In this document: positions 5,803 through 61,015 of the stretch, piece by piece
Layout of the letters: every line of letters starts with the position of its first letter
How positions within the stretch are numbered: position 1 is the stretch's first letter
DNA from: Lepidostoma basale
Taxonomy: Eukaryota; Arthropoda; Insecta; Trichoptera; Lepidostomatidae
DNA length: 64,000 nt
Direction of reading: 5' to 3'
Assembly (NCBI GenBank): GCA_022606425.2
Contig: JAHDVF020001467.1
Span: 496,001 to 560,000, forward strand
The notes under the pieces: generated by a model
Seen by the model: the letters and a program-made list of their open reading frames with translations, nothing else
What the model was told of the DNA's origin: nothing
Databases searched by the model: none
Translations under genes and position numbers: made by a program

Positions 5803-6035
5803 TTATAAAATAATAAAACACTTTGAATGCAACCACGGTATGGATATTATAACTTATGCCAACTAGTTTCGCTTAGACTCAAGGTTCATCAGGTCAATAT
5901 AATAACTACGAGTATATTGCTATTGTATTTCCCTGGTGAAGTTGGGGTCCAAGCGAAACTAGTTGGTATCAATTATAATAACCATACCGTGGTTAAATAC
6001 GTAGCGTTTTATTATTTTATAAGCTCATTATTTTA
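5803..6035. mobile_element. Foldback FB5 with hammerhead-like cores in both arms
   Basis: Arms 5803-5877 and 5951-6030 are near-complementary: AACCACGGTATGG against CCATACCGTGGTT, and CCAACTAGTTTCGCTT against AAGCGAAACTAGTTGG. On the - strand the left arm reads CTGATGAA (5892-5885), a short hairpin, GAAAC, then ACTAGT followed by T. On the + strand the right arm reads CTGGTGAA, a hairpin (5941-5954), GAAAC and ACTAGTT. The order is that of a hammerhead ribozyme core with minimal helix III. It has no coding capacity. Confidence 0.75.
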
Positions 6036-6107
6036 TTACTATCTTATTAAAACCGCAAACAATCCTTCAGAAGGCGTGTTCTAAAAATTAAGTAATTTAT
6101 AAACATG

Positions 6108-6345
6108 TTTCTTTATATACTTTGTATACAATACAAACTTTATTAAAAACCAAACAGACGTTTCGGACACCAAGCCGATTTGTGAACTATTTTTGTAATA
6201 TTTATATTTATATAATATCACTGGTGAAGGGCTTGTGTATCCAAAAAGTTTTTTTTTTTATATAAACATATATAAAATGCGTGTTGTATACAAAATATAT
6301 AAAAAAGGAAAGATTATACATCCGCAAAACAAAGGTTTGTCAAAT
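6108..6345. mobile_element. Foldback FB2, decayed
   Basis: The left arm starts with TATACTTTGTATACAA and CAGACGTTTCGGACA; the right arm has CACTGGTGAAGGGC and GTGTTGTATACAAAA. Compared with the 34.1- and 55.6-kb copies, the right-hand core has lost GAAA (it reads CCAAAAAG), so this copy is probably inactive. Confidence 0.65.
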
Positions 6346-6349
6346 ATAG

Positions 6350-7285
6350 AAGAAATTAATTTATAATTTCAGATATACGTATAATCTAAAAGTTCATTTG
6401 TTTACTCGTTAGGAATGTGTCATTAGTCGTGGAATAGTCGAATATTGGATAGTAGAAAAGGGCAATAAAATGCCTTTCGCTATCCCTGGCAACCCGTGGT
6501 GATGGAAATCGTCCTAGGGTGGCGGTGGCGGTAGGTGTGTGTCCTCAAAACAGCAGGAAACTTCCAAATCTCCGTTATATATGGACCTCTGATAAACATC
6601 GTCACCATAAAGGTTTTATTGAGAGCGAAATTGAAGTTATGTTAAGAAAAAAGAGAGATTTTTTCAAACAATATAAATCTTCGAAACGATTACGTACTTG
6701 TTAATGGATAAAACTGGGATTATTTTAAATTCAGCCGTATGTATAATACATTTATAGTATTTATTCTTTTAGTTCTAAATTACTTAGTAACAATTTTTTT
6801 ATATTAGCTGGTAGAAATAACGACACACATCAGAAATATTAGAAGACAAGAAATACATGTAACATATATAAAAAAGTCTAATTCATCTGATGACTTGTTG
6901 GTTCCATCTTCATTCTCCTGGAATGTGGACTGCCAACTATCTCACCATCTCATAGGTGGTCGGTCACGTGGTCTGGAACCCTTCGGTTGACTGTCTCGAG
7001 CTATCTTTGGGATTCAATTTCTTGCATACGGGAGAAATACTCGTTCCAATATCATCTTCTTTGGCGTCCCCATCTGACAATGTCTTCAACCTCGGAAATT
7101 CTTCGTATTTCTGTTTTAATTTTTTATTTGGCCTAGAAGAATTTTGCCAGGAAAAACGACACTTTTAATTAATAATGATTGCCAAACAAATTGATCGGCT
7201 TGAAATTATTAATATATGTTTTTACAAACATGCATATTTATTTTATCACAAATAAGATTAACAATGTAGTGTTTATCTGATTTTT
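6350..7285. other. Unassigned sequence
   Basis: A 61-codon frame (6519-6704, +) ends in a basic helix-like segment (MLRKKRDFFKQYKSSKR) that vaguely resembles the linker before LINE reverse transcriptases, but it is too short to call. A GC-richer patch at 6900-7100 could be the complement of a LINE 3' end; no diagnostic motif is left. Confidence 0.25.
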
Positions 7286-7289
7286 ACAA

Positions 7290-7495
7290 ATTTCTTTTTG
7301 ACACCTTTTTTAGGAATGTTTACACTGGTTTTTCCACTTTTGAGTTTATTTTTTTCGACTTATTTCGAAGGCTTTACACCTTCATCATCGAGAGAACTAT
7401 ATAAACGTTTATATCATTTTTCCAATGATGAAAGTGTAAGGCCTTTGAAACACGTCGAAAAAAGAAACTCAAATAAAAAAACAGTGTTTTAATTC
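7290..7495. mobile_element. Foldback FB7
   Basis: Arms pair around a 30-bp centre: TTTGAGTTTATTTTTTTCGA (7340-7359) against the complement at 7457-7477. The + strand right arm reads AATGATGAA, AGTGTAAGGCCTTT, GAAAC, ACACGTC; the - strand left arm reads GATGATGAAGG, GCCTTCGAAA. Both follow the hammerhead-like order, with the first C of CTGATGA replaced. Related fragments lie at 24.0, 40.0 and 41.5 kb. Confidence 0.65.
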
Positions 7496-7499
7496 ATTA

Positions 7500-8165
7500 A
7501 AAAATTCGTCATTATGGAATTTCACAGTGTACGCCTCACGTTTATCTATATTTTTTTAAGTTTAGGTGTATATAAAGTATATCAAAAATCAAAATTTCAT
7601 ACGCATTTTACCGATACTTTTTTTGCTACAAAGATAAATAATAGATATATTTGGGTTGGGAATGGAGATCCCTTTCATGTCCATAAAGGAATATAAATCG
7701 AACCTTCATCTTCTGGAACCCCCGGGTGAAGGTAGCGCCCACCCTCCCCGAAGTCCACCTATTTCACAATGAAAAAAAACATACACAACTTCTGATAAAC
7801 TATCCGTCATTAATCATTGAGCTTCATTTTTTACATCGAGTCAATTCCCTTCCTTCCTGCTGCGGTATTTGTCAGCCGTGACCGCAGGAAGATCTGATTC
7901 CTACTTTATTTACGTTTTGGGAGTTTACGTGTTTTTCATGTTTTCTTTCATGGTTTTTATCTAAAATTATATGTATATATATTAAATTAATTATATATTA
8001 AATTAAATGGAGAAATACATATTTAAAATATGTTTTAGGTAAATGGTATCACAATTTTTATTTTTCATTTATGCACATTATTATTATTATTATTTTGTGG
8101 AATCGCTCTTTACATCATTACAGCGCGAGCCAAATCGATGTAAAGGGTTAATCGATGTAAATCGA
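7500..8165. other. Unassigned sequence with small simple repeats
   Basis: No shared repeat was found in most of it. An (ATT)n run lies at 8080-8095, and three close copies of ATCGATGTA lie at 8133-8167, just beside the SINE-1 copy. Confidence 0.4.
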
Positions 8166-8167
8166 TG

Positions 8168-8310
8168 TAGCTATCATATTGTTTCTCATGATATGTGATA
8201 GGTAGCTAACCTATCACCATTTTATTATCACATGAATTCTGCACCAGACCAAAGACAGTGTAACAATCACACTGCCATTGCCGGGAATCGAACCAGGAAC
8301 CCATCAGTTG
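8168..8310 (-). mobile_element. SINE-1, tRNA-derived, truncated
   Basis: It reads on the - strand. The complement of the B box (GGAATCGAACC) is followed in the element's sense by the body diagnostic words: CAGTGTGATTGTTACACTG, CTTTGGTCTGGTGCAGAA and AATAAAATGGTGATAGG. The A-box end is missing. An FB4 arm adjoins it directly on the right. Confidence 0.75.
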
Positions 8311-8324
8311 TATTGACATCATCA

Positions 8325-8505
8325 TCAGTTGTTCAGATTGTAATACCCGATGTTGTCAACATAGGTTGACAAAACAGCTGTCGCGAAAAATAAAAAAATA
8401 ATTAATTGTGATACTATAAACGCCGTTTTATAATTAAACAGTTAATAATGTTGAAGCATCATAGGGTTGCGGCCAAAACAATTGACTATTTAAATATTTT
8501 TTGAA
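8325..8505. mobile_element. Foldback FB4, one arm
   Basis: Only the right arm is kept: a GATGTTGTCAACATAGG palindrome, GACAAAACAGCTGTCGCG, and the outer end with GAAGCATCATAGGG and GGCCAAAACAATTGAC. It matches the right arms of the 11.0- and 44.2-kb copies. The following 8505-8850 is AT-rich and holds nothing I can assign. Confidence 0.65.
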
Positions 8506-8854
8506 TAAATTAAAATCTACTATTCCGAATTAAGCAAAATCCAGTTAGATTAAACAAGTCACATTTTTTATATTATCAGTTTTTACTTTTTAAAAATGTA
8601 AATTATTCTGATTTGTTTGTTATACCACACTTTTAGGCCATATTAACTGATTATTTATCTTTATGACAAGAAAATGACATGAAAATTTGTATCACAAAAA
8701 TGTGTATATTTTTTTAAATATCAAAAAAAAAGTTTGATAAAACAAAATATTAAGCCAGTTTGAGACATACTCGTATATAGGGAAAACAAAACGCCTCACT
8801 ATTTTATTCTCTCTTATGTCAAATAACAGCAATAATAATTGAATTAAACAGCGT

Positions 8855-9030
8855 TAATGATTACATTCTAAATTTCTTCTATGTTCACCATACTTTGTGC
8901 TGTAGATGTTTTATTTGTCTTTTTCTTTTTGATATACTTTGCATATACAACACTTACTTGAAAAAATATATATTATCAGACATGTTTCGGACAACCCGGT
9001 CCTTCCTCAGTGATTTATAAAGATATTTAA
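8855..9030. mobile_element. Foldback FB2, left arm
   Basis: It starts with CTATGTTCACCATACTTTG and CTGTAGATGTTTTATTTG, then TATACTTTGCATATACAACA. On the - strand it reads CTGAGGAA (9010-9003), GGACCGGGTTGTCC as helix II, GAAAC, and ACATGTC (8984-8978). The helix is intact but the core U7 is G. Similar downstream sequence to about 9130 (TGACAGATGTTATAAAG) also follows the 26.3-kb copy. Confidence 0.65.
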
Positions 9031-10040
9031 AATGTTATAAAATTGTTTAAATATATGATCAGTTTTGACAGATGTTATAAAGATTTATTTTGGGACGTTA
9101 ATGCTTTTGATAAAACAATTATTATGAATATTTAAAACTAAAATAATAATTTTAAGCTCTTATTGGGGTTCAGGTAATTACTCACAACAAAGGAAATAAA
9201 TCAAAGATTGGACGTTAAATTTATTTGATTATTTAAAATATTTTTAATTGCTTTAAATTGTTCAAATGTTTGTTAACGAATTAAAATGTTGTAATTGGTA
9301 TTTCGTAGGAGATAATTCCAGAGCTTCTGCGTATAGAAGCCGACATCATCACCCACTCCACTCACCTAATCCACGTTCCTGCGAGCACTCCCTTTAAAAC
9401 TGGGTTCGTAATAATTCAACCGATGAATCTGACGACCTTTCCACTCTTCGTTATTTATTTTCTTCCTCCTTGTCTATGATCCCCCTTCCGTTTCTTATGA
9501 TATTCCGCGTACCTTTTACCCCCGGGGGAGGCTACCGCCCCTTTTTATCTCCCCCCTCCGGGATAGTTTTTATTTATAGGCTTATGATCGCAGGTTATTC
9601 GACCGCATTATTAATTCTAGCATCAGACAACTCGTTTGCTCCTCTGGCTCCCATTTTCCTTGGCTAATGGCTTGTTTTTCTTTATATTTTCACAAGATTG
9701 AGTACCGCGGAGAGAGTTCTGTGTTTAAGAGTTTTCACTGGAATAATGTTTAAAGAATTTCAAGTAAAATTCTAGCATTTAAAAATTACTAAGAAAGCAA
9801 TATTAAATAGAACATTTTAATATCTCTGCAAATACATTTTTTAAACAAAAACAAAAAGTTAGTGTAAGCTATGATAAAACAATAGAAATACGTGTAATCC
9901 TGAAAAAAATTTGACACTCATCTGTTTTTTATATGTTTATTTAGAGACTAAATACTTGTAATGCTATTTGAAAAAATATTTGATTATTATGTGATTATTA
10001 TATTGTTGATTATTTAAAATGGAATATGAAATGCCAAGAT
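9030..10040. other. Unassigned sequence
   Basis: AT-rich except for a C/T-rich patch at 9340-9660 containing a 65-codon frame (9470-9667, +), not recognised. No shared repeat beyond the FB2-linked piece at 9055-9135. Confidence 0.25.
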
Positions 10041-10044
10041 AGCA

Positions 10045-10141
10045 GTCTCCGGCATTTATCAGGACAGAGCAGTATGGCGATCCATCATCACTGCCTACAC
10101 TTCCGGAGAAACGGCGTGATGGTTAGTTAGTTAGTTAGTTT
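10045..10141 (+). mobile_element. LINE-A 3' end with intact tail
   Basis: The last ~25 codons (ATCAGGACAGAGCAG, GGCGATCCATCATCACTG) are followed by CGGCGTGATGGTTAGTTAG and a clean (GTTA)4 tail. It is strongly 5'-truncated. Confidence 0.8.
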
Positions 10142-10815
10142 TCCTTTTATAATATTTAAACGAAATTTTCTTAAAATTTCAGCTCGGAAAAATTAAACAA
10201 CAACCGTGTAGTAAGCGTATAATGGGGATTAAAACCGTACCTATGACTACATTTATGTTTGATTCCTGTAAAGTAGTTTAAAATATATGTTCTTATCAAA
10301 CAGGTTTTCAAAAAAAGATTTATCAATTTCTTGACAAAACTCTAAAAGATTTCCCCTACAAAATGTACTTGAGATTCTCTCGAAAGTTATCTCCGGTGTC
10401 TAAGATAATTTAATTTCTGTTACCTTTGAGGTGAAAGCTCTGCGCTTGAAAATTAGCAGTAAATTTAAAACTTGTTTGTCGTTAAAAGTTCCAAATCCCA
10501 CCCCCCTGGAAGTTTAATGGCATTTGCGTTCGTGTATAAGGGTTTGCATCTTGCAGAAGTAATTAGGGGTTGAAAAGATTAAGTCTTATGATATTAATGA
10601 ATACCTTCAGTACGGCAGCCGACGGCACACGGTCAATTTACAGTTTCAAACAAAATTATAAAATCATGAATGTTTAACTCTTATGGATGAATATTTCATT
10701 ATGCTTTCGTTTCATCCAGTAAATATTCTCTTATAAGTAATTATGTTTTTAAGAAATTTCACAAAATAGATTTGCATAAACTTATTGGAATGGTTAAAAA
10801 CTTAGAATACAGTGT
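10142..10815. other. Unique sequence, nothing assigned
   Basis: A moderately GC-richer patch lies at 10480-10640. The words GGTGAAAGCTCTGCGCTTGA at 10432-10451 resemble a hairpin arm at 51.43 kb. No frame worth calling. Confidence 0.25.
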
Positions 10816-10997
10816 GAATAGAAATAGAAGCGGTGGCCGATGAAGAAAGCATGGTATGACCAAATTTATTCATTATTACAAGACGGCTACATTCGAAGTA
10901 GGGAAAAATCGACTAGCGTTCATGTTACGATTTATAATGTAGAGGAATCTCAAGAGGCATGTCAAGACATAGCAGTTTGGTAGTCTATCCTCTTTAG
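10815..10997 (+). mobile_element. LINE-A 3' fragment
   Basis: It corresponds to the GRPRKTW...DQI part of LINE-A (GGTGGCCGATGAAGAAAGC, TGGTATGACCAAAT) through GTAGTCTATCCTC, with an in-frame TAG. It breaks off before the tail and abuts FB4. Confidence 0.7.
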
Positions 10998-10999
10998 TT

Positions 11000-11285
11000 T
11001 TAAATAGTCTATTATTTTGGCCGAAACGCTATGATACTTCAACATTATTACTGTTAAAATTTAAAACACTGTTATAATATCACAATTTCCTTTTATTCAC
11101 TGAGATTGTTGCGACAGCTGTTTTGCCAACCGATGTTGGCATCATCAGGTGTTACAATAAACTGTTTATTGTAACACCTGATGATGCCAACATAGGTTAG
11201 CAAAACAGCTGTCGCGACACTCTCAGTGAATAAAAAGAAATTGTGATATTATAGCAGTGTTTTAAATTCTAACAGTAATAATTAA
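11000..11285. mobile_element. Foldback FB4 with a near-perfect 61-bp palindrome
   Basis: Arms at 11133-11162 and 11164-11193 are exact complements with a single T between them; weaker pairing continues outward for about 80 bp. On the + strand: CTGATGA (11178-11184), T, helix II GCCAAC...GTTAGC (11186-11201), AAAAC, ACAGCTGTC (11205-11213). The - strand shows the same with helix GCCAAC/GTTGGC. So both arms carry a hammerhead-like core in which G12 is A. There is no protein coding. Confidence 0.8.
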
Positions 11286-11289
11286 AATG

Positions 11290-12480: not shown

Positions 12481-12484
12481 AATA

Positions 12485-12637
12485 TTAAGCGTGAGGAGTC
12501 GTAGAAATCAAATTGCGTGCAAGAGACGATGTATGAATGTTGAGAAAACGAGAAGTATTTGAGGTAGAATATTATTGTGATCCATTCTTTCTGCCTACTA
12601 CTTCGGAGACGCCTCATGGTTAGTTCGTTAGTATTTT
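12485..12637 (+). mobile_element. LINE-A 3' fragment
   Basis: It matches the final codons (CGTGAGGAGTCGTAGAAATC, ACGATGTATGAATGTTGAG, CCATTCTTTCTGCCTAC), then CATGGTTAGTTCGTTAG. It has an in-frame TGA and a degraded tail. Confidence 0.75.
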
Positions 12638-13394: not shown

Positions 13395-13617
13395 ATTTTG
13401 TAAAACTCCATTATTTATTTATAATAGTAAACACGATTGCTTAGTGGTTTTACTTGGATTTAATTTATATATAATACATTGTAACACATTTGTTTCGCCT
13501 TGCGAGGACATTCTCGAACTGGAATGTTTGAGAATGCTCTCGCAAGGCGAAATGAATTTGTTATAATTTATATAAATTAAAACCTAGTAAAATCACCAAA
13601 TAATCGTGTTTACTACA
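13395..13617. mobile_element. Foldback FB6
   Basis: Long arms (about 13410-13520 and 13530-13615) pair, for example TAGTAAACACGATT against AATCGTGTTTACTA and TTTCGCCTTGCGAG against CTCGCAAGGCGAAA. Each arm has a helix-II-like hairpin next to GCGAAA, but the following stem is ATTCATTT-like rather than ACNNGT, so it fits the hammerhead layout only partly. A 60-codon frame inside it is a by-product of the arms. Confidence 0.75.
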
Positions 13618-13803
13618 ATAAATTATAAAGTTTTAATACAGTTTTGGGAAGGACATGTTTCACCTGTCTAAGGCATTATTAATTTTGAAAACATTTGTTA
13701 AAATACCTTGGACATGCAAAACTTGTCAAGGAAACACGCGTTTTCAATCGTATAAATAATTTAATATTGAGTTTTACATCATTGTTCAAGAAACAATAAA
13801 TAT
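13618..13803. mobile_element. Foldback FB1, decayed
   Basis: It contains GGGAAGGACATGTTTCACC, CTAAGGCATTATT and the outer end TTTTACATCATTGTTCAAG, AAACAATAAAT, in FB1 order, with mutated arms. It directly adjoins FB6. Confidence 0.6.
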
Positions 13804-14800: not shown

Positions 14801-15675
14801 CCAAAGAGTTTGTAAAATTACGAGTATCTAAATATATGAACAATAAGAGATTATTACTGAAATAAAATTAATTTTGATAATTGCATACCAATATCTTCTT
14901 CTTCTTCTTTAGCCATCTCTATATTTTATTTATAAGTGAATAGTTTAGGTGAGACAGTGTCTCCTTATCTAACTCCAGCAGTACTCACTTTGGCCGTACA
15001 TATACTAAAATTTGAACGATTCAGAAAAGATTTTCATGGCTCTGTGCATATCAACATACATGTACACAATTACTTATTGTTTTCTTTTAATTATAATCTT
15101 GGTGAAAAATCGTCTCGGAATAATGATGATGCGTTTTTTAAATGAATTCTTCGGCACCTGAGAAAATATTGGCCGTAAATAATCCGGCCAGGTAAGCAAA
15201 CGAACTTCTGGCAAGCTTCCAAAGCTCGCTTCGCTGAACGGCGTCGGCCGTCATTCATCAGCGGGTCTGTTTGGATTATTAAAGCACCAGGTATTCCCCT
15301 TTATGATTTTCTTCACGCTCGAACTCGGTAGAATGCCAGAACAATTTAAATATTTTTCTCGAGATTAGAATATTTAATTAATGGTCCACAGAGAACATAT
15401 TTCATAACGCGTCAAAACCTTTCGCTTTTATTGTTTTGTTTTAACTATGCATTGTGATCTTTAAAAAATGGGTAATAATTCAAATTTTAAAAGATTTTTT
15501 ACTATTAGTATATTAAATAAAAATGATTTAAGAACGTATACATATTTCAAAGCGAAATTTCATGCAGAAATTATGTATAATTTCTTCTATACTCGCCTAC
15601 ACCTTGCGTTTTAAACTCACATTTTATATGAATTTAGGAAACCTAAACTAGCACACTCAAAAGTAGTAACGGGGT
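14800..15675. other. Unassigned sequence
   Basis: A GC-richer patch at 15150-15310 includes GGCCAG/GTAAGC at 15188-15199, a good splice-donor match, but without a supporting frame. A CTT run (14895-14910) may be a relic of a LINE tail. Confidence 0.25.
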
Positions 15676-16245: not shown

Positions 16246-16288
16246 AATTACGTGATTATGAATGTTATGTAGCATATTTAAGATAATC

Positions 16289-16515
16289 AAATGATTTTAC
16301 TGAAATCTCTTGATGGAGGTTCATTTTAAAAAATAATTAAACAAAACGATGTTTTTAAACTATTTCCACTATTGTCTTTATTTCGACAGCGATCGGTTTC
16401 GCCAGGCTCACTGGCATCGACGACCAGTCTGTTGATGCTAGCGAGCCTGGCGAAACCGGTCGCTGTCGAAATAAAGACAAAAGTGGAAGTAGTTAAAAAA
16501 CATCGTTTTATTTAT
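16289..16515. mobile_element. Foldback FB3 with hammerhead-like centre
   Basis: The arms (TGTCTTTATTTCGACAGC against GCTGTCGAAATAAAGACA, and beyond) pair over about 90 bp. On the + strand: CTGTTGAT (16429-16436), hairpin GCTAGCGAGCCTGGC (16437-16451), GAAAC, ACCGGTC (16455-16461). The - strand left arm has the same GAAACCGATC layout. The left outer end starts AAATGATTTTACTGAAATC; the right outer end is cut off where family D begins. Confidence 0.8.
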
Positions 16516-18529: not shown

Positions 18530-18960
18530 TTTATTTTTTGTGAATGTATACTTATACTTGTATACGAATCCTGGATTTCACCAATGGTGGGTGATTAATT
18601 CATGAAATTTAATTGTATCTCAATAGAGACGAAGGCGTTAGTGTGTGGATTATATAGATTAATCTTAAAAAAGATTAACATATGTAATCAAATCTACATA
18701 GATGGCGTATTGAAACTGACATGTGAAGATAAACATAGATTTGTAACATATATACAACCTCCAAAAATTTGTCTTACATAGTCATTAAGAAATAGGTGGA
18801 ATGGAGAATGTTGTAATTACATAAAGCGTGCGCTTAACCCAACCAATGACAGGTCATAAGTTCTGTAAACACCTTGATCAACCATATTCAGTTTCCATTT
18901 TGCATCTTCGTCTCTATTGAGATACAATTAAATTTCATAAATAAAACTATTTATTTAAAA
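18530..18960. mobile_element. Family D element with perfect 33-bp TIRs
   Basis: TIRs 18602-18634 and 18906-18938 are exact complements, including TTGTATCTCAATAGAGACGA. Outside the left TIR lies the D flank (GTATACTTATACTTGTATAC, GAATCCTGGATTTCACC). The body holds GGCGTTAGTGTGTGGATTAT, AAATCTACATAGATGGCGT and AGCGTGCGCTTAACCCAACC. No transposase frame exists; it is a MITE-like, non-autonomous element. Confidence 0.8.
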
Positions 18961-25225: not shown

Positions 25226-25997
25226 ACTGAATATTCAGAATTACGGAACTCGATTATTTGACGGATTCAATGAAATCGTGTTTTATTAATTAAATGTTGG
25301 TTATGGCTAATATATTTTTTTATGTTGGCCGAAGATGAGGAAATTTCTAATTTTTCGTCATAGTTACGGATTTAAGTTAAACGGGTATACAATCAAGGGC
25401 CATAAACCTAGTGTTAATAATGCGTATTGATATAAGTTACGGTTTGTAATATTTTTTTGTTAATTGTCAAATAATATGAGACAAGTAACTTAAACTTAAT
25501 ATGGTATTTTAATATTGTTTATTTTCAGTATCATAGTGTTCCTTAAAATAACAATGTCGTTATGTTTAAGTGTTAAGTGTTTATTAGTCGAGGATGCGGT
25601 ATATAGAGCGATGAATAAGCTTTACATACAACAGATCGTAAAGTTAAACAAAAACAAGATATTTATTTTTACGAGTGAATGGAATCTCTTAGCTCTGGAT
25701 TAAGCCCTATGGAACGGAGCAAAGGTAAAACGTGACATTTAGACTTAATTTGTTCTTTGCCACTCTCTATTAGCCCATCAACTCCCATTCCTCGGGCGTG
25801 CAAATTCCTCGTTTCTCGTAATTAAGGTTCATTTATACGCACATACATCGAGCGTGCCAGACGCGTGACGTAAAGGACACTATTTTTTTTATTTAAGGCA
25901 AAATTGTTTTTCTTTCAAAATTTGAATAATTTATTAAGAATTCCGAATTATTATTAAATGAGGGCATTTTTTTATGTACTTTTTAAAAGCTATATAT
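25225..25997. other. AT-rich sequence, nothing assigned
   Basis: A 62-codon frame (25515-25703, +) is not recognised. The patch 25770-25880 is GC-richer and unique. Confidence 0.3.
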
Positions 25998-26220
25998 TTT
26001 AAATTTTTAATTATATCTCAATAGAGACGAAGAAACAAACTGGAAACTGACTATGGATGATCAAGGTGTTTACAGGACTTATGACCTGTCATTGGTTGGG
26101 TTAAGCGCACGCCAGTTTGTTTCTTCGTCTCTATTGAGATATAATTAAAAATTTAAATTAACCACCCACAGGTGAAAATCCAGGATTCGTATACAGATAT
26201 AAGTATACATTTCACAAATA
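25998..26220 (-). mobile_element. Family D short derivative with perfect 46-bp arms
   Basis: 25998-26043 and 26112-26157 are exact complements of 46 bp. Between them lies 68 bp of D body in reverse orientation (GGATGATCAAGGTGTTTACA, CCTGTCATTGGTTGGG). The D flank follows at 26158-26220 (CACCCACAGGTGAAAATCC, CGTATACAGATATAAG). The arms reach past the usual TIR into the body, which suggests arm extension after the interior was lost. Confidence 0.8.
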
Positions 26221-26414
26221 TTTGCTATATATTTTATTTGTCTTCTTTTTTTTATAAAATTTGTACATACAAAACTAACTTTAAAATTAACTATCAGACA
26301 TGCTTCGGACAACCCGGTCCTTCTTCAGTTATAAGGATATTTCAAATATTATAATTTTTTTAAAACAAATCGTTATAACATTTTGACAGATGTTATAAGG
26401 ATTTATTTTGGAAC

Positions 26415-28820: not shown

Positions 28821-29086
28821 TACACCTTATTCATTATAAAATACTTTTTCTGCTTATAATATATTAGAGTTTTCCATAATTATCTTAAAATATCTGCTAT
28901 AATCTATGAATACTAATAATATTGCTTATCTATGAAAACATTACTACATAATTTATATTTATTATTATTTTATTTTTAAATATATAAAACAAATATTAGC
29001 CGATTGATAATATTATAGTACGCTTAGCCATAATATTAAATTTCAAGTAAGTAGGAAATATCTGAAATGTTTAAGAGCATTAAAAA

Positions 29087-29440
29087 TAAATAAAACAATG
29101 TTTTTTAATAATTAATTCCACCTTTGTTTTCATTTCGACAGCGACCGGTTTTTCAAAGCTGGCTAGCATCAAATGTATCATAAGAATGCCAGCCAGCATT
29201 GCGAAACGTCTTCGGGAAGTATCGTCTTCTTCTTCTTCCTCAGCCTATTGTCCACTCCTGGACAAAGGCCTCCTCCATTCGATTCTATGTCATTTGGTCC
29301 TGTGCAGACTGCATCCAGGTTATTCCGACGTGTCTGTTCAGATTAGGAAGTATCGTAGTTATTAAAAAAAATTGAATTATTTAAATATTATTTAAAATTA
29401 ACTTCCATCAACAGATTTCATTAAATCATTAATTTAGTTC
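29087..29440. mobile_element. Foldback FB3 split by a LINE 3' end
   Basis: The left arm (ATAAAACAATGTTTTTTAAT, CATTTCGACAGCGACCGG) and centre end at 29225; the right arm resumes at 29346 and runs through AACTTCCATCAACAGATTTC. The centre has GCGAAACGTC in place of GCGAAACCGGTC. Confidence 0.7.
29226..29345 (-). mobile_element. 120-bp LINE 3' end with 11-bp target-site duplication
   Basis: GGAAGTATCGT is at 29215-29225 and 29346-29356. The insert begins (on +) with CTTCTTCTTCTTCC, the complement of a (GAA)n tail, then CCACTCCTGGACAAAGGCC, a 3'-end sequence also found at 31.85 kb. It is an extremely 5'-truncated insertion. Confidence 0.8.
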
Positions 29441-34047: not shown

Positions 34048-34375
34048 TATTATATCTCTTTTTCTTTTTTTTATACATTTTATAAACAACACTTAAATAA
34101 AAAAAATAAAATTACGTAGACATGTTTCGGACAAACAGTCCTTTTTTAGTGAGACATATTATAAAGATACATACCTGTATTCAATAGATATTATATATGA
34201 CATCAGTCAGATTATGTAAACGATTTTATAATATTTTTAAAACTTAATCTTTATAATATGTATCACTGAAGAAGGACTGTTTGTCCGAAACATGTCTATG
34301 TATTTTTTTTTTAAATATGAGTGTGGTTGAGTTAAAAAGAGAAATAAGGCATTATAACAACACAAAATATGGCGT
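34048..34375. mobile_element. Foldback FB2 with intact GAAAC cores
   Basis: The left arm has ACATGTTTCGGACAAACAGT; the right arm has GGACTGTTTGTCCGAAACAT. On the + strand: CTGAAGAA (34266-34273), helix II GGAC/GTCC with a 5-base loop (34274-34286), GAAA (34287-34290), ACATGTC (34290-34296). U7 of CTGATGA is A. On the - strand the left arm has the same helix and GAAACATGTC. Outer ends include TATACATTTTATAAACAACA and ACAACACAAAATATGG. Confidence 0.8.
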
Positions 34376-38252: not shown

Positions 38253-38457
38253 AAAATGATTTTACCGAAATCTCTTGATGAAAGTTCATATTAAATAATA
38301 ATTAAATAGAACGATTTAACTACTTCCACTTTTCTCTTTATTTCGATAAACTAGTCAGTCTGTTGATGCCAGCGTGCATGGCGAAACCGGTCCCTATCGA
38401 AATTAAGACAAAAGTGGAAGTAGTTAAAAAAAACATCTTTTTATTTCATTATTATTT
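38253..38457. mobile_element. Foldback FB3
   Basis: Left end AAATGATTTTACCGAAATC; right arm ACAAAAGTGGAAGTAGTTAA. On the + strand: CTGTTGAT (38360-38367), hairpin GCCAGCGTGCATGGC, GAAAC, ACCGGTC. The left arm has lost its GTTTC. Confidence 0.75.
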
Positions 38458-38462
38458 AAAAG

Positions 38463-38715
38463 TGATGTTAAATAAAACGATGTTTTGAATTTTTAATTAA
38501 CTGCGCCTACTAATTGTTTTTATTTCGATAGCTACTGGTTTCGCCAGGCTAGCTTGCATTGACAGACTGGTCCACCAGTTTCGAAGCCTGGCGAAACCGG
38601 TCGCTGTCGAAAAAAAAACAATAAGTGAAAGTAGTTAATAAAAAACATAGTTTTATTAATGTAATATTTGAAATGAGCTTCCATTAAGAGATTTTAGTAA
38701 AATCATTAGATTATC
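38463..38715. mobile_element. Foldback FB3, second copy in tandem
   Basis: GTTTTTATTTCGATAGCTAC pairs with the right arm GCGAAACCGGTCGCTGTCGA; the outer right end is CTTCCATTAAGAGATTTTAG. It adjoins the previous FB3 within a few bases, so one probably landed in the other's end or they share a terminal piece. Confidence 0.75.
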
Positions 38716-44105: not shown

Positions 44106-44385
44106 TTAATCATATATTTTAAACTGTTAATGAATAAACTTTGTTTTTTGTATCATAACTGTATTTTATTTTACGCGACAGATGTTTCATCAACCAATGT
44201 TGACCTCATCAGATCAATAATATATCAACAACAAAAAAAATCAATATGTCAACATTGGTTGATGAGACGGCTGTCGCGTACAATAAAATACAATTGTGAT
44301 ACAAAAAACAAAGTTTATTCATTAGAGTTTTAAATGCTGAGGTATCATAGTCTTTCGACCAAAACAATGGACTATTTAAATCATA
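44106..44385. mobile_element. Foldback FB4 with an intact hammerhead-like core
   Basis: On the - strand the left arm reads CTGATGA (44214-44208), G, helix GTCAAC/GTTGAT, GAAAC, then ATCTGTC: both CTGATGA and GAAA are unchanged. The right arm (GTCAACATTGGTTGATGAGAC, + strand) lacks the CTGATGA part. The outer right end GGTATCATAGTCTTTCGACC, AAAACAATGGACTATTTAAA matches the other FB4 copies. Confidence 0.8.
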
Positions 44386-54365: not shown

Positions 54366-54379
54366 TTTATAATAATAAT

Positions 54380-54880
54380 ATCCTTAAGAAATACACAAGC
54401 AAGGAAATTATTACAGAAACTGATAAAGGGGAAAAAAGTATCGTGTAAAATAAATAGACAGAAACTGAAAGCATATAACCCTATGATGTTAGAGAAGCTT
54501 TAACGGAATCAATTAGCACGTCGGATAAAGCACATTAACCGCGATATAAAACAAGTCCGTTATTACTGCCCCATAATTTCACATTTGGATCAGCCGAGCG
54601 GACGCCGTAAATCTATCCTTTATTACGCCCTATACCTGTGCATTATCGACTTATCTCCTGCAAGATGAAATGAAGCAGTTTCCACTCGGTTAGCCCCGGC
54701 CCTACTTACTACCTGCCGTGACCCCCACCCCTGGCGCCACATACGCCCCGTCCCATCCCCGCGCACTCACATTAACCCCTTAACCCGCAAGTAAGAAAAT
54801 CATAAAAACCTGTTATTTTAATTTTTACCCCACAAACAAAAGGAGTAGGCAGAATAAATGAACAGCCACACTTTAAGGAT
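54380..54880. other. Unique sequence with C-rich patch
   Basis: 54540-54790 is GC-richer and pyrimidine-rich. A scrap like the LINE-A/SINE-3 3' end (AAAGGAGTAGGCAGAATAA, CAGCCACACTTTAAG) lies at 54838-54877. Confidence 0.35.
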
Positions 54881-54883
54881 GAA

Positions 54884-55165
54884 TTGTATCTCAATAGAGA
54901 CGAAGATGCAAATTGGGAACAGAATTTATTTATTTTTATTTATTTATTAAGGGCAATGGGTAAAATCCAGTATTCGTCTACAAGTATTTGTATACATTCA
55001 AAATGTTGTAAAAACAAGTCCTGTAAACACTTCGACTACCATATCCTGTTCCCAATTTGCATCTTCGTCTCTATTGAGATACAATTAATCCTTGAAATGA
55101 TAACCCGCAATGGGTAAAATCCAGTATTCGTCTACAAGTATTTGTATACATTCAAAATGTTGTAA
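54884..55165. mobile_element. Family D with perfect 39-bp arms and duplicated flank
   Basis: 54884-54922 and 55046-55084 are exact 39-bp complements. The D flank (CAATGGGTAAAATCCAGTAT, TCGTCTACAAGTATTTG) occurs twice as an identical 58-bp block: inside the arms at 54954-55011 and outside at 55108-55165. Most of the D body is missing. Confidence 0.85.
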
Positions 55166-55550
55166 GCCACGTGTCATGCATGCACATCGATATTTTCGAT
55201 TTCTCATTCAATATTTGATTTATTTGAATATTTTTACGATTTTTTTATGAATCTTTAAAATGTGTATGAAATATTTTTTCTTTATACGTTATTATACTAG
55301 GGAAAAACCTCTCTATCCGCACAGTTTCACCGCCGATCCATTCACTTAAGTATTATATTTTTAATTTAGGAAAGAGCCACAATTAGCTATCGACATTTTG
55401 TATTTATTTATTCGTATTTATTTATTCAGTAAGTTTTAGTTTTATAAAATATCAGATAAATTGTTGATTTGAATAAAAGAAATAAAGTTAGTTTAGAAAT
55501 AAAAATAGAATAAATAAATTGTTGATAGCTATCAAGTATGCATTTGTTAA
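55166..55550. other. AT-rich gap
   Basis: No feature recognised. Short repetition of TATTTATTCG near 55425. Confidence 0.3.
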
Positions 55551-55885
55551 TGTTTATTTTTACGTATACTTTGTATACAAAACACACTTAAAAAAATATT
55601 AATGAAAAAACGAAACACGTTTCGGACAAACAACCCCTTCATCAGTGATAATATCAAAATTTTACAAATATTGAAAAAAAAAAATTCACGGTAAAATTTT
55701 TTCATTCATCATTTATGATAATGTACGATAATATCACTGATGAAGGGCTGATGAAGGGCATTTGTGTGTCCAAAACATGTTTGGTTTTTAATTTAATTTT
55801 TTTAAATTAAGTGTGTGTTGGAAACAAAGATTATAAAAAAATAAACATTACACACCCGCAACACAAAGTTATGGCAAATATATTT
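55550..55885. mobile_element. Foldback FB2 with CTGATGA in both arms
   Basis: On the - strand: CTGATGA (55645-55639), A, hairpin, GAAAC (55623-55619), ACGTG. On the + strand CTGATGAA occurs twice (55737-55744 and 55748-55755, an 11-bp duplication), then GGGC...GTCC, AAAAC, ATGTT. The left arm thus keeps both conserved boxes; the right arm has lost G12. The outer end ACACCCGCAACACAAAGTTA, TGGC matches other FB2 ends. Confidence 0.8.
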
Positions 55886-55934
55886 TTTTCCTTTAATTAT
55901 TTTTTTATATCCATATATATTTTTTTACGTATAC

Positions 55935-56155
55935 AACAGGTCATTTGAACCCAATTACTATATAAATTTTATTTTTTAGCTATTATATTGATTCTCGTGA
56001 TATTTGATAGATAGCCAATCTATCGCCATTTTATTGTCACGTGAATTATACACCAGACCAAAGACAGTATGACAATCACACTGCCATCACCGGGAATCGA
56101 ACTCGGGACCTTCTGTATGGAAGTCAGAGCTTTTACCACTCTGCCACGAAGGTCG
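55935..56155 (-). mobile_element. SINE-1, full length
   Basis: In reverse it runs from AACAGGTCATTTGAACCCAA to CCACTCTGCCACGAAGGTC. In sense it has the A box TGGCAGAGTGG and B box GGTTCGATTCC, then the body. It is the best copy to define the family, about 220 bp. Confidence 0.85.
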
Positions 56156-56159
56156 TCAA

Positions 56160-56735
56160 AGTAGTTCTCTAAGTAGTTCTCTTGCAGTGATATGTTAACT
56201 TCAAGTCCAAAGAATTCAAAGTCATCTTCAATCTACATCTCTGTAGAAGTTTTTGTTTAAATGTTTTGCAAGATAATTAAAAACATACAATAATATCCAT
56301 CTCAATTATTTATATATAAAATACATTTTTTTTATACATATACTATAAGCATGTTTCAGTTAGCACTGAATCATCCATCTTTCGTGTACACCGTTATTTT
56401 TTAAAATTTATATTCCGTAAAAGGACAATAACCATATAATAAATAGTAATTAAGTACGTTTTTTTAATATATCGCACGCTTAATAGTAAACTGACAGATT
56501 ATGGTTTAGGTCATAATTGAGTTAACATTAGACAGAGGCTTGTGTTAACGCTATCCATCGTTTCGCGTTAAAATAAAATCAAAATTCCGCCAATTGACCT
56601 CCATTACACTATATCGGTCTTTTTCATTCGTACGTGTTTTTCGACTGTTTTTGTTAAAACACTGAGTCATGTCAGATTGAGTAAAACTTGTTTTTTTCAG
56701 TTAAGCCAGTGTTCTATTAAGCGTGCAATATGTAG
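56160..56735. other. AT-rich sequence
   Basis: A piece at 56345-56400 (AAGCATGTTTCAGTTAGCAC, TGAATCATCCATC) is vaguely FB7-like. Otherwise nothing. Confidence 0.3.
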
Positions 56736-56825
56736 TATACAACACTCACTTTATTAAAAAAATATAAATTAAATACCAAACATGTTTCAGATACAACACG
56801 AAGTAAAGGTGAATAAAGATGTGTT
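56735..56825. mobile_element. FB2 deletion derivative
   Basis: GTATACAACACTCACTTTAT, ACCAAACATGTTTCAG jumps directly to the outer right end ATACAACACGAAGTAAAGGT. The centre is missing. Confidence 0.6.
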
Positions 56826-56829
56826 TTAT

Positions 56830-57870
56830 AATTTTTTTTTGTTTTATAAAAATGATTGAAATTGATTTTGAGTAAAGTAATTAAAACCATCAAAAACTAA
56901 TTATTATATTCTATTGGAGGAGAAACTCATATATAAAAAATATGAGATTTTTTTCGATCTTAGTCAGAATAAGGGTGCTTTTGAAAGCACAAGGAATTGT
57001 TCAAATTTATCCATGTTGTCTTGAAATTGTTTATTTCAATACAAAATTAAAATTGTATGGGTGGATATATATGAAAGTTGTCGGTTGCATCCTGGTCACT
57101 ATAAGCCTATTCTATTATATATGTAACGGGTATCGATGTATTATTTTATTTTAAAATTATTGAATTTATTTATCGAACATTGTTTTTCAGTGACAAGTTA
57201 TTTTATTTATATTTTATTTTAAAAAAATGGTACTGTGGGGTTAATTCCTCTCAGTAACCTAGTTATTTCTAATCTCTACAATCCCGTTGACAATTTTCCA
57301 CCTTCCTTCCGTCTCCCCCCCCCCCCTCTATGATATACTTAAGGCGGTCATTTGACCCCCGACCCCTGACCCACCTCGCCATTTCTGGACCAGAGTTATC
57401 TTAGCTCCTAATGTGAAGCGACTGGCAGCCAGATGACCCCTACTTAGCCGAGGGGTACCTACTTTATTAAGGTTTTGATGGTGCGCTTGTTTCGTTTTGA
57501 AATTGGAAAAATAAAACTCCTTTATAATATAATAATAGAACGTATACCAAAAAAAATCTATAAAACTTTACAAATATTTATAGATTTTAATATTATATGT
57601 TTATTCAAATCTGATTACGCCAAAGGTTTTTTGTAAAACACATTATTTAATTTAATTTTTTTAAATTCAATACCACTTTTTTAAAAACAAATGATTTGTC
57701 AATTTAATCCATTCTATCATATATAATTATAACACCCCTCAAAACCTTAAACCTATGGTCTCCTTTATACTTGTGGTGAATATATAACAATATGGTATAC
57801 CAAAGAGCAATTTTTATAGTTTTGTTATTATAATTTTTGTTTTATTTTGTTGAATCAAATCAAGGGTATA
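56830..57870. other. Unassigned sequence with poly-C patch
   Basis: 57230-57480 is GC-richer, with a run of about 14 C at 57316-57329. A 70-codon frame (56942-57154, +) is not recognised. Confidence 0.35.
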
Positions 57871-57874
57871 GCTT

Positions 57875-58000
57875 TTATATTGATTCTCAAAACATGTGAC
57901 AGGAAGCTAATTTATCGCCATTTTATCGTCACATGAATAATACACCAGACCAAAGACAGTATGATAATCACACTATTATCGCCGGGAAACAAACCACGAA
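57875..58000 (-). mobile_element. SINE-1, truncated
   Basis: In reverse: TATTGATTCTCAAAACATGT, CGCCATTTTATCGTCACATG, CAGACCAAAGACAGTATG and a worn B box (GGGAAACAAACC). The gap 58000-58270 holds nothing clear. Confidence 0.7.
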
Positions 58001-58273
58001 TGTCGTCGTACATATATAAATAACTGTGTTGAGGATTATAAATGTGTAAGACCCAGAAATCTGCCTGAGATATTTAAATCATACATATATTATTTACACT
58101 TCAATTTTTAAGCTTAATCTACCCATCTACTTCTGCTAGATGGGTTTCTTATTACTCCTTCTTCTTTTTTATGTTAATGGAATGGTAGTTTTACATGGAT
58201 AGTTTTACTGCTACTGTGATGGAAGGTTTGACCGACTTTGAGTCGTTTCCATTAGCACCGGATATTATAGTCA

Positions 58274-58620
58274 AAATCTATTGGCCCCAAACAATGTCAA
58301 ATGCGGTTCTCTGGATCATGGCAGGCGAAAAAAAAATTAGAGAACAAGTCGTTAGACGCAAATGGCAGTGGATCGGTCACACTCTGAGACGGAACCCAGC
58401 CTGCATCGCTCAGGGTGCACTAGACTGGTCCCATATGGGGGGAAAGAGAAAGCAAGGCAGACCTAGAGCCATCTGGAGAAGAACCCTACAGGACGAGGTT
58501 AAGGCAGCAGGCTTTACTTGGGATGGTGTTAGGCATCAGGCATGCTATAGAGTCGGGTGGAGTAGGTTCCTTGAGGCCCTATGCACCACGGAGGTGTGAC
58601 AGGACAAAAATAAGAAAAAT
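58274..58620 (+). pseudogene. LINE-B (RTE-like) 3' end
   Basis: Homology to the other LINE-B copies starts at AAAATCTATTGGCCCC (58274) and the frame is open to TGA at 58597-58599: KIYWPQTMSNAVLW, RRKWQWIGHTLRRNPA, GGKRKQGRPRAIWRRTLQDE, CYRVGWSRFLEALCTTEV. It ends ATAAGAAAAATAAGAAGAA. The residues before 58274 in the frame are unrelated flank. It differs from the 13.8-kb copy at roughly one in nine residues, so it is older than the pair at 13.8 and 32.2 kb. Confidence 0.8.
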
Positions 58621-58789
58621 AAGAAGAACACCACACCCGGAGACACGTTAATTTCCGTTTACTCTTCCTGACACATTTGTTAAAGATTTATTTTATTTTA
58701 GTTTAAAACAGTATTTTAGAAAGAAACTTAAAAATATTATCTGCAAGTTCCTCTGAGCGTACCCTATAATTCTAATTATATAATTCTAT

Positions 58790-58868
58790 TTGTTAGGGTG
58801 GTTATGAAAAGATTTTTATATTCAGATAGTTATCTTATAATTTGGTTCTCTAGCCACCCTAACAAAAA
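58790..58868. mobile_element. Tiny MITE-like hairpin
   Basis: TTTGTTAGGGTGG and CCACCCTAACAAAA are the ends of a ~79-bp AT-rich interval. There is a single copy and no coding capacity. The TIR is 13 bp and a target-site duplication is not obvious. Confidence 0.5.
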
Positions 58869-58869
58869 T

Positions 58870-59460
58870 CAATGAAGTAGTTATTCAAATGAATATTGCA
58901 GTAGACGTTGAGTTTATTGTATAATGGAAGCATTTTCCAGGTTCCGTAAAAATACAAAACTTTCGTCCACAGCGATGAAACTGCCACCGTCCACCTTATA
59001 AGATAACAGTCCTCACCCTATCCTTCCCTTAACCACCTTGAATCAACTTTCTCTACTGCCCCCTACTTCCCACCCTTTATTTCTCCACCTTGGCGACTCC
59101 TTTCTTTTCCTAGCTGATAGGAAGTGATATGGACGGCCATTTGGAGGGAATGTATTACTTGAGCTTATTCATATATTTTATTAGATTTTTTTTTTTCGTT
59201 TTTGCAATTCGAATTGCATCTCATTGAATTTTATTCCGATTCACAGAGTTATAAGAAAAAACTAAATGATTTTTTAACAAAAAAACATTGTTCGTAGCAT
59301 GTGCTGTTTTGGAAACTAAATCTTCATAATAATAGTAAAAACATTACTTATAAAATTATAAAATTTAATAAATAAAAGTTTCTGTTGCAATTATAATTGT
59401 TAATATTTTATTTAAATGGATATTTAGAAAAGAAACGCTTTTTAAAATTATCCCTTTTAA
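58870..59460. other. Unassigned sequence
   Basis: A GC-richer pyrimidine-biased patch at 58960-59160; otherwise AT-rich. Nothing recognised. Confidence 0.3.
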
Positions 59461-59464
59461 TGTT

Positions 59465-59745
59465 TTTTGAACTATAGTGTAAGACTCTACATTTAACAAA
59501 GGTAAAAAACAAATTTCTAGGTAATTAATACGAATGAAAACGTCAGTTTTCTAGAACTTTTATTATATTTTATGGTAATGACATGTTTTGCCCTTCTGGC
59601 ATTATCAAAGTGTATAATGTCTTAAAGGGCAAAACATGTCGTTCTCATAAAAAAATAATAAAACTTCTATAAAACTGACGTTTTTATTCGTATTAACAAT
59701 TTAATATGAAGTTTTACATCATTGTTAAAGAAACAGTAAATAATT
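59465..59745. mobile_element. Foldback FB1, complete layout
   Basis: The arms pair over more than 100 bp: ACGAATGAAAACGTCAGTTT (59530) against AACTGACGTTTTTATTCG, and GACATGTTTTGCCCTT against AAGGGCAAAACATGTC. The outer right end is TTTTACATCATTGTTAAAGA, AACAGTAAAT. The core reads GCAAAACATGTC, with G12 lost in both arms. Confidence 0.75.
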
Positions 59746-59850
59746 TTCTAGGTGTTTTATTACATTTTATGTGAGTGATACGTTTTACTCTGCAGGATAT
59801 CATAGCAAGGCGAAACATGACACTTCCATAAAACAGAATTAAAATTCTAG
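59746..59850. mobile_element. FB1, second short copy
   Basis: TAGGTGTTTTATTACATTTT, GTGAGTGATACGTTTTAC, then ATAGCAAGGCGAAACATGAC, ACTTCC. GAAAC is intact in the right arm. The scrap at 59855-59915 (CTCGATTCCTCAACATGC, ATACATCGTATG) looks like LINE-A. Confidence 0.6.
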
Positions 59851-59920
59851 ATATACTTCTCTCGATTCCTCAACATGCATACATCGTATGTATTTTCGTG
59901 CACGCACGAATCATCAAATT

Positions 59921-60115
59921 AGACGACCTTCGTGATAGGTCCCAGGTTCGATTCGCGAAGATGGCGGTGTGATATTCACACTGTCTTTGATCTGGTGTAG
60001 AATTCACGTGACAATAAAATGGCGATAGATTACCTGCCTATCACATGTCACGAGAATCAGTATATACTTGCTTAAAAAATGGATTCAGTAATTGGGTTCA
60101 AATAACCTCTTTTAA
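59921..60115 (+). mobile_element. SINE-1 with internal deletion in the head
   Basis: GACGACCTTCGTGATAGGTC, CCAGGTTCGATTCGCG keeps the B box, but the segment holding the A box is deleted (about 35 bp). The body GGCGGTGTGATATTCACACT, CACGTGACAATAAAATGGCG and end GTAATTGGGTTCAAATAACC are well kept. Confidence 0.8.
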
Positions 60116-60119
60116 AAAA

Positions 60120-60595
60120 ATCGATCTATCAAATATTAATCTTAAATGAGTACCATGTTTTAGTATATTCAAAAATGAAATAAAATATTGGTAGTGTGAG
60201 AGCACACTAGTGAAGGTCCAGCAGACTCCTCGGACCATATCGTACCTTGTTATTACTGTGTAGGTTTTCACAGGAGGGGTCGGGAATTACTCTTTCTATC
60301 TGCGAGCAACCAGGCGGCACTAACTCGGGACGTTTTCCACCTCTATTCCCTACCTCTGGCTACCTCTGGGGGAGTAATAACACACACCCACCCCTTCGGT
60401 CAGCGGTAAAACCTACCCTCTACACGCTGATAAGTATTATTTCTTTAAAAAGTTTTGTTATATTAAGGTTGTTTGAAGTTTCCTAAGAGGTAATAGACTT
60501 GTTTGGAGGACTTGGAAGTTTTAAAACTAGCAAATATGCATATTTTTTCGTCATACTAACACTTTCCTTGTTTCTACCTTCCCTGTAATGATTAT
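60120..60595. other. Unique sequence
   Basis: A GC-richer patch at 60190-60430 with a 79-codon frame (60247-60486, +) is not recognised. Confidence 0.3.
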
Positions 60596-60596
60596 T

Positions 60597-61015
60597 TGCT
60601 TATTGTTTCTTGAACAATGATGTAAACCTACCCATTAAAAGATAATGTTGACACTGAGAAGAAAAGGTACTCTCAAATTTTGTATTAACACCACTTTATT
60701 TTTATTATAGCACTACGAATAGTTTTTGTTACAAATAATTCTAAATCATTGGTTTATTAGCGGAGCGAAACGCGTTGGTAGAATTAAAAAAAGAAAAAGC
60801 GGTGATAAAAAAAATATCTAATAATTAATACTAAAGAAATCGTTCGTTTCCTAGAAGTTTCATTATATTTTATGGGAAGGACTTATTTCACATAGTTAAG
60901 GCATTATCGAATACAAATGATAATATGACAAAAGTATTAAAACTCGTTTAAACGATTTCATTCGAATTATTTATTTAATATGGAGTTTAATCACTGTTCA
61001 AGAAACAATTAATAA
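60597..61015. mobile_element. Foldback FB1 split by FB10
   Basis: The outer left end TTATTGTTTCTTGAACAATG, ATGTAAACC stops near 60645; FB1 resumes near 60818 with TAATTAATACTAAAGAAATC, TAGAAGTTTCATTATATTTT and ends with CACTGTTCAAGAAACAATT. The insert boundaries are approximate. Confidence 0.65.
60690..60812. mobile_element. Foldback FB10
   Basis: AACACCACTTTATTTTTATT pairs loosely with AAAAAAAGAAAAAGCGGTG. The + strand centre has GGAGCGAAACGCGTTGG, that is GAAA followed by the self-complementary ACGCGT and T, the same pattern as the other cores; CTGATGA is not recognisable. Confidence 0.5.

Follow-up and report, generated by a model that had tools for sequence, protein, structure and literature searches.

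A 64,000-nucleotide window of the genome of the trichopteran insect Lepidostoma basale (contig JAHDVF020001467.1, positions 496,001 to 560,000) carries many foldbacks, inverted repeats whose arms, often both of them, contain a motif resembling the core of the hammerhead ribozyme. Searching the window and the 768.8-Mb genome (1,572 contigs), we connect these foldbacks to Penelope-like elements (PLEs), and we put at about 0.83 the probability that they are short PLE insertions in which each arm is one pseudo-long terminal repeat (pseudo-LTR), two complementary DNAs (cDNAs) having been joined head to head by dual-strand priming, and in which the motif is a minimal hammerhead. The original prediction, made from the letters of the window, had treated the foldback families as unrelated; PLE open reading frames (ORFs) found for several families, and tails resembling ORF starts, tie them to PLEs instead.

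The strings behind that prediction lie in the window within 2 nt of where they had been placed. A descriptor allowing up to two mismatches to CTGATGA, followed by one inserted base, helix II and GAAAC or AAAAC, matched the window 13 times, whereas 60 dinucleotide shuffles averaged 2.9 matches and never exceeded 6. Adding a palindrome of at least 6 nt at ACNNGT left 10 matches against 0.083, and an exact core on top of this left 4 against 0.017. Without the inserted base the window showed no enrichment (4 against 2.4), in agreement with the extra base before helix II that had been flagged. Inverted repeats of 119 nt (94% alike, 11044-11282), 103 nt (82%, 5802-6023), 87 nt (89%, 44118-44334) and 84 nt (90%, 16338-16514) accompany these motifs. 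Foldbacks with a hammerhead-like core, often in both arms, are present as proposed, and the motifs are far more frequent than chance predicts. Individual copies depart from the ideal: the FB4 motif at 11178 (+) has a mismatch within helix II, the FB4-type motif from 44212 (-) has a broken helix III palindrome, the FB5 motif at 5892 (-) has a mismatch at the foot of helix II, where the FB5 family consensus pairs, and some copies, such as those at 9010 (-) and 26334 (-), are single arms.

Across the genome, the pattern CTGANGANG-N7-16-CGAAACATGT has 17,099 matches and its reversed form 0; allowing any two central helix III bases raises this to 25,136, with 3 for the reversed form. The form lacking the inserted base has 202 matches, and many of the first 100 can be read as carrying an inserted G. 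Of the first 100 matches listed of the 25,136, which include 72 distinct ones, 88 have a palindromic helix III; pairing at positions 2, 3 and 4 of helix II is seen in 95, 94 and 85 of them, where about 55 would be expected, a comparison in which related copies are counted repeatedly. Cores in which a U3-A8 pair stands with a GCC/GGC helix add 13,877 matches, giving about 39,000 for two patterns that demand different cores. The corresponding single changes are few (C3-A8, 149; U3-G8, 249), which marks U3-A8 as the family state of two families described below, C and L; the exchange of the 3-8 pair is one or two family-level changes, not many independent events.

Using BLAST, we sorted 189 places in the window and fetched loci into 15 families and compared 14 representatives (A-D from long-frame loci, the others majority consensuses or single copies), family M, a single hairpin locus, having been excluded beforehand. 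Stem I was never required in finding motifs; counted at four positions per family, it pairs at 45 of 56 positions against a permutation mean of 23.8 (p <= 5e-6), and sliding the register by -1, +1 or +2 gives 17, 16 and 20 paired positions. The stem is weak in families F, H and A (2, 1 and 2 of 4 positions). Helix II, which had been a search requirement, pairs at 55 positions against 30.9, and its 10.1-11.1 pair is G-C in 14/14. Helix III is palindromic in all 14 representatives, with five different palindromes among them, as expected for the covarying, self-complementary ACNNGT of the original prediction. Three helices are thus found around the core, stems I and II by covariation and helix III as a palindrome; being loop-free, helix III is unable to close inside one molecule and could form only between two RNAs or two copies. 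In an alignment of 47 distinct rows, fitted to the structure and for that reason leaning toward it, 88.2% of cells are paired against 54.1% when shuffled and 123 cells are doubly changed against 49 (0 of 500 shuffles in either case), and slid registers pair 31-44% of cells. A MAFFT alignment of the 14 families, in which helix II was misaligned, was left out of the counts. The covariation proposed as a check on the helices is therefore present in stems I and II, which pair above permutation and shuffle expectation, and it supports a hammerhead fold as judged from sequence.

Every one of the 14 families compared has the extra base after A9 (A in seven, T in six, G in one). Nine of them (A, B, E, F, G, H, I, J and K) combine it with the conserved core C3UGANGA9, G12AA and C3-G8. 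Elsewhere the core carries A6U in FB3 (family D), U4C in FB13 (family O), A8 together with A12 in N, and U3-A8 in place of C3-G8 in C and L, so that the 3-8 pair is one or the other in 13/14 families. Once the U3-A8 core is allowed, FB7 and FB10, said earlier to fit in part, fit better than had been claimed. Such core changes could weaken or abolish catalysis in several families; the conserved pairing, for its part, may reflect selection for catalysis. Separately, families A, B, D, I, J and N have a recurring AATAAAGTG(G)-like string 15-30 nt past the motif on its downstream side, possibly as a shared signal.

The Rfam hammerhead models, put forward as a test of the motif, gave no match at E <= 10, either in the window or across ten loci, and the many microRNA matches in these scans are long hairpins under the cut-off. 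A genome search with RF00008 was empty, as were the control genomes, and is thus uninformative. A covariance model built from families B, G, H, I and N, run over a search space of 282,444 bases, detects families K (3.3e-5), J (1.4e-4), E (6.6e-4) and A (1.2e-3), and D weakly (0.055).

The link to PLEs is most direct at locus L024, where a 758-aa open frame with RVT_1 (1.4e-13) and GIY-YIG (6.6e-5) Pfam matches is flanked by 456-nt inverted repeats, 99% alike, both arms of which carry the FB3 motif CTGTCGA-T-GCCAG..CTGGC-GAAAC-CGGTC. This reverse transcriptase and GIY-YIG ORF between motif-bearing inverted repeats confirms the suggested connection to Penelope-like elements. Searches of the genome returned at least 62 GIY-YIG matches, several in inverted pairs (150 of 541 candidates scored), and at least 59 matches to the PLE protein (59 of 3,702 scored), other PLE families among the latter having frames of 752-873 aa with 39-42% identity. 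Family D alone was assigned by both Pfam domains, and A-C through protein similarity. In the fetched ends, families A, B and C, all with long open frames, have their own version of the motif 3' of the ORF. Arrays in contigs C308 and C502 run in - - + + order, and long open frames of family C stand in tandem, the last copy of one C array (L063) ending within the first ORF codons. Family E adjoins decayed GIY-YIG fragments. Long-frame PLEs thus account for four families, and decayed fragments for a fifth (E). Pseudo-LTRs, tandem or inverted, that run into an ORF start and are accompanied by target duplications were found, as in PLEs. Relatives of the PLE protein, among the best 120 of 1,343, occur in Phthorimaea and Euphydryas (Lepidoptera), Diabrotica and Schistocerca.

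For other families the connection runs through tails. The + arm of FB2c continues at 55856 into HPQHKVMANI, which resembles the ORF-start stretch MNPQHKVMANIEE of PLE family A, and the FB2 tail is the same stretch with a broken frame. The FB4 tail MLKYHSVSAKTMDYL resembles the FB3 tail MNFHQEISVKSFDY (score reached by 1/500 shuffles), and the FB5 tail MSNHKVSASYE weakly resembles family A (10/500); of the ten tail comparisons made in all, six were no better than 42/500. Through the shared motif and these ORF-start-like tails, FB2, FB4 and FB5 appear linked to PLEs, and the families for which no ORF was traced would probably have the same origin.

Two observations arose from these loci. A long-frame element of family A (L065 with L064, contig C853) starts with an inverted partial pseudo-LTR, the junction lying inside the hammerhead motif. 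At least two of the GIY-YIG matches are bacterial: contigs of 1.64 Mb and 0.25 Mb (L021 in C102, L022 in C729) hold bacterial-looking UvrC frames and, in L021, a frame that we take to be MutS-like, which implies that DNA of a bacterial symbiont or contaminant is part of the assembly.

The foldbacks carry the footprints of their integration. Each of the 15 FB3-type (PLE-D) copies examined has one tailed and one untailed arm, the untailed arm ending near query position 2748-2769 and its partner running into the ORF start. Target duplications scoring at least 9 flank 13/14 copies against 10/182 cross pairs; the matching stretches span 9 to 15 bp and hold no more than one mismatch, except in L024, where an AT repeat may match by chance, and the window copy at 16285-16514 fails the threshold. 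All 14 pairs of inner ends, that is the junctions, are different. The tail count has 15 rows and the duplication count 14 (L023, near-identical to L024, is excluded), and only clearly two-armed places were entered, four similar-looking ones by coordinates (L017, L020, L035 at 5638-6355 and window 29084-29430) being left out. With 40 of 3,513 candidates scored, FB4 yields at least 80 matches, spread over both strands of about 40 places; among 21 aligned copies (20 fetched plus that of the window), 9 have duplications scoring at least 8 against 0.66 expected, and by eye the left arm runs into an ORF-like tail in 20, L055 differing. FB5 has at least 81 matches (40 of 1,200 scored), with a tail in one arm in 10/11 copies by eye. 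Thirteen pairs of motifs lie within 2 kb of each other among the first 100 matches listed of the 17,099: ten are head to head (-/+) with like helix II letters, and the remaining three (one +/-, two -/-) join unlike motifs.

The outer limit of the arms is informative as well. Among 51 arms ending inside queries with genuine upstream sequence (families A, C, D and E; the query copies of L, O, I and N end there themselves, and these four are omitted), 23 end within -12..+5 of C3, give or take the few bases by which BLAST ends may be off. It seems, then, that the 5' edge of the hammerhead is where the template RNA begins, and that this RNA is not a cleavage product. Templates starting at the cleavage site were considered and are unsupported by the arm ends (3/51).

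We suggest the following course of events. A purified PLE protein is known to cut and extend both target strands and to start reverse transcription inside the ORF start (PMC11167929). Reverse transcription would likewise start here inside the RNA near the ORF start, and an ordinary mRNA would consequently be copied only back to its 5' end, yielding the pseudo-LTR alone; an arm would extend from at or near the 5' edge of the hammerhead motif, probably near the mRNA start, to the ORF start or just inside it. Both strands of the cut target would prime cDNA, an outer start site giving the tailed arm and an inner one the untailed arm, and the two cDNAs would be joined head to head between the target duplications. 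The motif would occur in both arms because both are pseudo-LTRs, and any catalysis would presumably be by a dimer. Read-through RNA from a tandem array could give a whole element, and products consisting of the pseudo-LTR only would explain how about 39,000 motif matches coexist with 59 PLE ORF matches, itself a lower bound.

Several results weigh against this account. Genome searches found no PLE ORF for FB2, FB4, FB5, FB7, FB13, J, K or N, and a GIY-YIG fragment at L039 that we considered as part of an FB4 element was rejected: a family E motif lies between it and the FB4-type motif, so that the fragment is more likely E's. Twelve of the 21 FB4 copies and the window's FB1/FB4 are without a clear duplication at the threshold, and one FB5 copy (L070) seems tailed in both arms. 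Just 3/51 arm ends fall within 6 nt after the cleavage site, with no pile-up there. On the 47-row alignment, two of five covariation measures do not rise above shuffles, namely the number of pairs showing a double change (7, with 7.0 in shuffles) and that of further pair types (27, with 24.3 in shuffles, reached in 58/500). Work on PAc, a Poseidon PLE of Anolis, showed cleavage by the hammerhead only when protein was present and detected no reads at the cleavage site, and hammerhead mutants left insertion unaffected (PMC11167929). Finally, variants are shared between the arms of one insertion, which therefore need not stem from two fully independent RNAs.

This last point bears on two competing accounts of the palindromes. 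Under self-priming, proposed for Adineta vaga Penelope (PMC3846280), a single template or cDNA turns back on itself and serves as the primer for its own second strand. In seven FB3-type copies, the arms are indeed more alike within an insertion than between insertions (99.6% against 98.4%, p 0.0009) and share 24 variants against 8.3 expected (4 against 1.2 and 31 against 10.4 for two other choices of region); in FB4 the corresponding figures are 12 against 2.9, and junction palindromes are reported as well (PMC3846280). Such sharing implies that both templates usually come from one source or that one template is used twice. Self-priming accords poorly with target duplications on both outer sides, with arms that differ in start site, with arms that are closer to another copy's arm than to their partner (L024, L027, L038) and with the known priming by a PLE protein on both strands (PMC11167929), and we regard it as possible but rather unlikely. 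Much the same standing goes to FB4 and FB5 being non-autonomous elements copied as whole palindromes and moved in trans by PLE proteins. Variants shared within copies would follow from this too, as would the similar lengths and arm ends (12/21 FB4 copies are 275 bp long) and top-scoring matches that span nearly the whole query on both strands, although the scored candidates favour full-length matches. Yet no FB4 position separates left from right arm, the end columns of the alignment aside, and the central letters vary among FB4 copies and strongly among FB5 copies; FB4 as a fixed-centre self-copying unit is weakened by this and kept as a rival.

A different question is what the motif is for. 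It may be kept for structure or protein binding, in RNA dimerisation, packaging or the start of reverse transcription, and be non-catalytic in vivo, which we find somewhat doubtful while giving it real weight: several families have core changes, the arm ends are not piled up at the cleavage site, and insertion by hammerhead mutants (PMC11167929) fits such a role. What speaks for catalysis is that core bases, the G-C pair at 10.1-11.1 (14/14), GAAA or AAAA and three helices are kept together, that C3-G8 is kept or exchanged for U3-A8 in 13/14 families, and that single changes are rare in the U3-A8 class (149 and 249 against 13,877). That the likeness is a chance or low-complexity coincidence among unrelated foldbacks is scarcely credible; arm sequences outside the motif do differ widely across families, but the shuffle control, the reversed patterns (0 and 3 against 17,099 and 25,136), the covariation and the linkage to PLE ORFs all contradict it.

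Returning to PLE insertions bearing minimal hammerheads, a bolder and quite improbable extension is that the helix III palindrome serves as an RNA-dimer linker: a dimeric ribozyme would form only with two templates, the pair would be delivered to both strands of one target cut, and the U3-A8 families would represent natural hammerheads that work with their core pair exchanged. Dimer folds of ten families make stem I and helix III both intermolecular only for FB5, retain an intermolecular helix III with an intact helix II in A, E and I as well, and adopt other structures in the remaining six; these models hint faintly at folding as a dimeric hammerhead. If the linker were real, the ribozyme would be tied to integration on both strands. 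The persistence of the helix III palindrome through changes of its letters, the head-to-head form of the insertions and the restriction of the tail to one of the arms would then all be accounted for.

Minimal type I hammerheads in PLE pseudo-LTRs were reportedly described by Cervera and de la Pena in 2014 and by Lunse, Weinberg and Breaker in 2017. Our motif shares with them (PMC7761336, PMC6155905) the core, little or no helix III, the pseudo-LTR location, thousands of dispersed copies and possible cleavage as a dimer, and differs from them in the extra base after A9 (14/14), in U3-A8 in two families and in dispersed copies explained as foldback pseudo-LTR pairs. The literature searched, which excludes the 2014 and 2017 papers, yielded no report of a natural U3-A8 pair or a general extra base in PLE hammerheads. 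De la Pena and Flores reportedly characterised in 2001 a viroid hammerhead whose core holds one nucleotide more, placed between A9 and helix II; that is one ribozyme, whereas here the extra base is the rule across 14 families.

As for integration, PMC3846280 already describes, for Penelope of A. vaga and Drosophila virilis, inverted head-to-head pseudo-LTRs, a tail on one inverted copy that includes the first ORF codons, and duplications of 8-10 bp, compared with about 9-15 bp here by our scoring; our genome differs in its very many ORF-less pairs and in exactly one tailed arm in 15/15 FB3-type copies. The Anolis element PAc likewise has an internal reverse transcription start near the ORF start, a protein acting on both strands and a pseudo-LTR hammerhead; there tandem copies are stressed, and here the footprint is of head-to-head products (PMC11167929). 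Animal retrozymes are also small non-autonomous repeats with type I hammerheads (PMC7229834), for which PLE machinery is a suspected helper (PMC7761336); they are tandem repeats with a mostly closed helix III, whereas inverted pairs with a loop-free palindrome were found here, which sets the foldbacks apart from retrozymes. While tails, inverted pseudo-LTRs and hammerheads of PLEs were known before, the core variants, their scale of about 39,000 pattern matches and an explanation that unites the families appear to be new.

Coordinates of foldbacks and single-arm motifs in the 64,000-nt window
Feature	Position	Motif (strand)	Remark
FB5 foldback	5802..6023	5892-5861 (-), 5933-5964 (+)	left flank continues into ORF-start-like tail
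FB13 foldback	7350..7463	core CCAATGA at 7423 (+); CTCGATGA-type at 7390 (-)	
FB2 motif, single arm	8979..9010	(-)	PLE ORF-start-like stretch QHKV...NIEE downstream, broken frame
FB4 foldback, 275 bp	11005..11279	11148-11113 (-), 11178-11213 (+)	
U3-A8-type foldback, family C	13417..13623		type of the PLE in C308
FB3 foldback	16285..16514	16429-16461 (+)	
FB2 motif, single arm	26289..26334	(-)	
FB2 foldback	34103..34312	34266-34296 (+); weaker, 34155-34111 (-)	
FB3 foldback	38254..38461	38360-38392 (+)	ORF-start tail in left arm
Second FB3 foldback, adjoining the first	38468..38712		target duplication related to that of the first
FB4-type foldback	44118..44334	from 44212 (-)	broken helix III palindrome
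FB2c foldback	55548..55850	from 55645 (-), from 55748 (+)	
FB7-type foldback	59492..59729	59608 (-)	U3-A8 core

Some further features of the window deserve mention. The outer and middle flanks of the paired FB3 foldbacks at 38254-38712 share AAAGTGATG-like letters, as if one target had been used twice. A further foldback at 2652-2807, with the arm CAGAAGA-T-GGCAtagagcTGCC-GAGACCG (-), is by eye probably another decayed family of the same kind. An inverted-repeat family around TCTCAATAGAGACGAAG (18595-18945, 25995-26160 and 54869-55099) has no visible hammerhead core, and a U6-like match at 14981-15082 reaches 36.8 bits, short of its gathering score of 44.

Most minimal PLE hammerheads lie dispersed in non-coding DNA, and what they do and whether they are active has been described as still a mystery (PMC7761336). 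On our account, many of the dispersed hammerhead copies in this genome would be head-to-head pseudo-LTR pairs, with footprints (start sites, the tail rule, junctions and duplications) that may be good enough to read the mechanism of integration. The roughly 39,000 matches would also amount to a natural mutant collection of the ribozyme core, including U3-A8 and extra-base forms that the standard models did not recognise.

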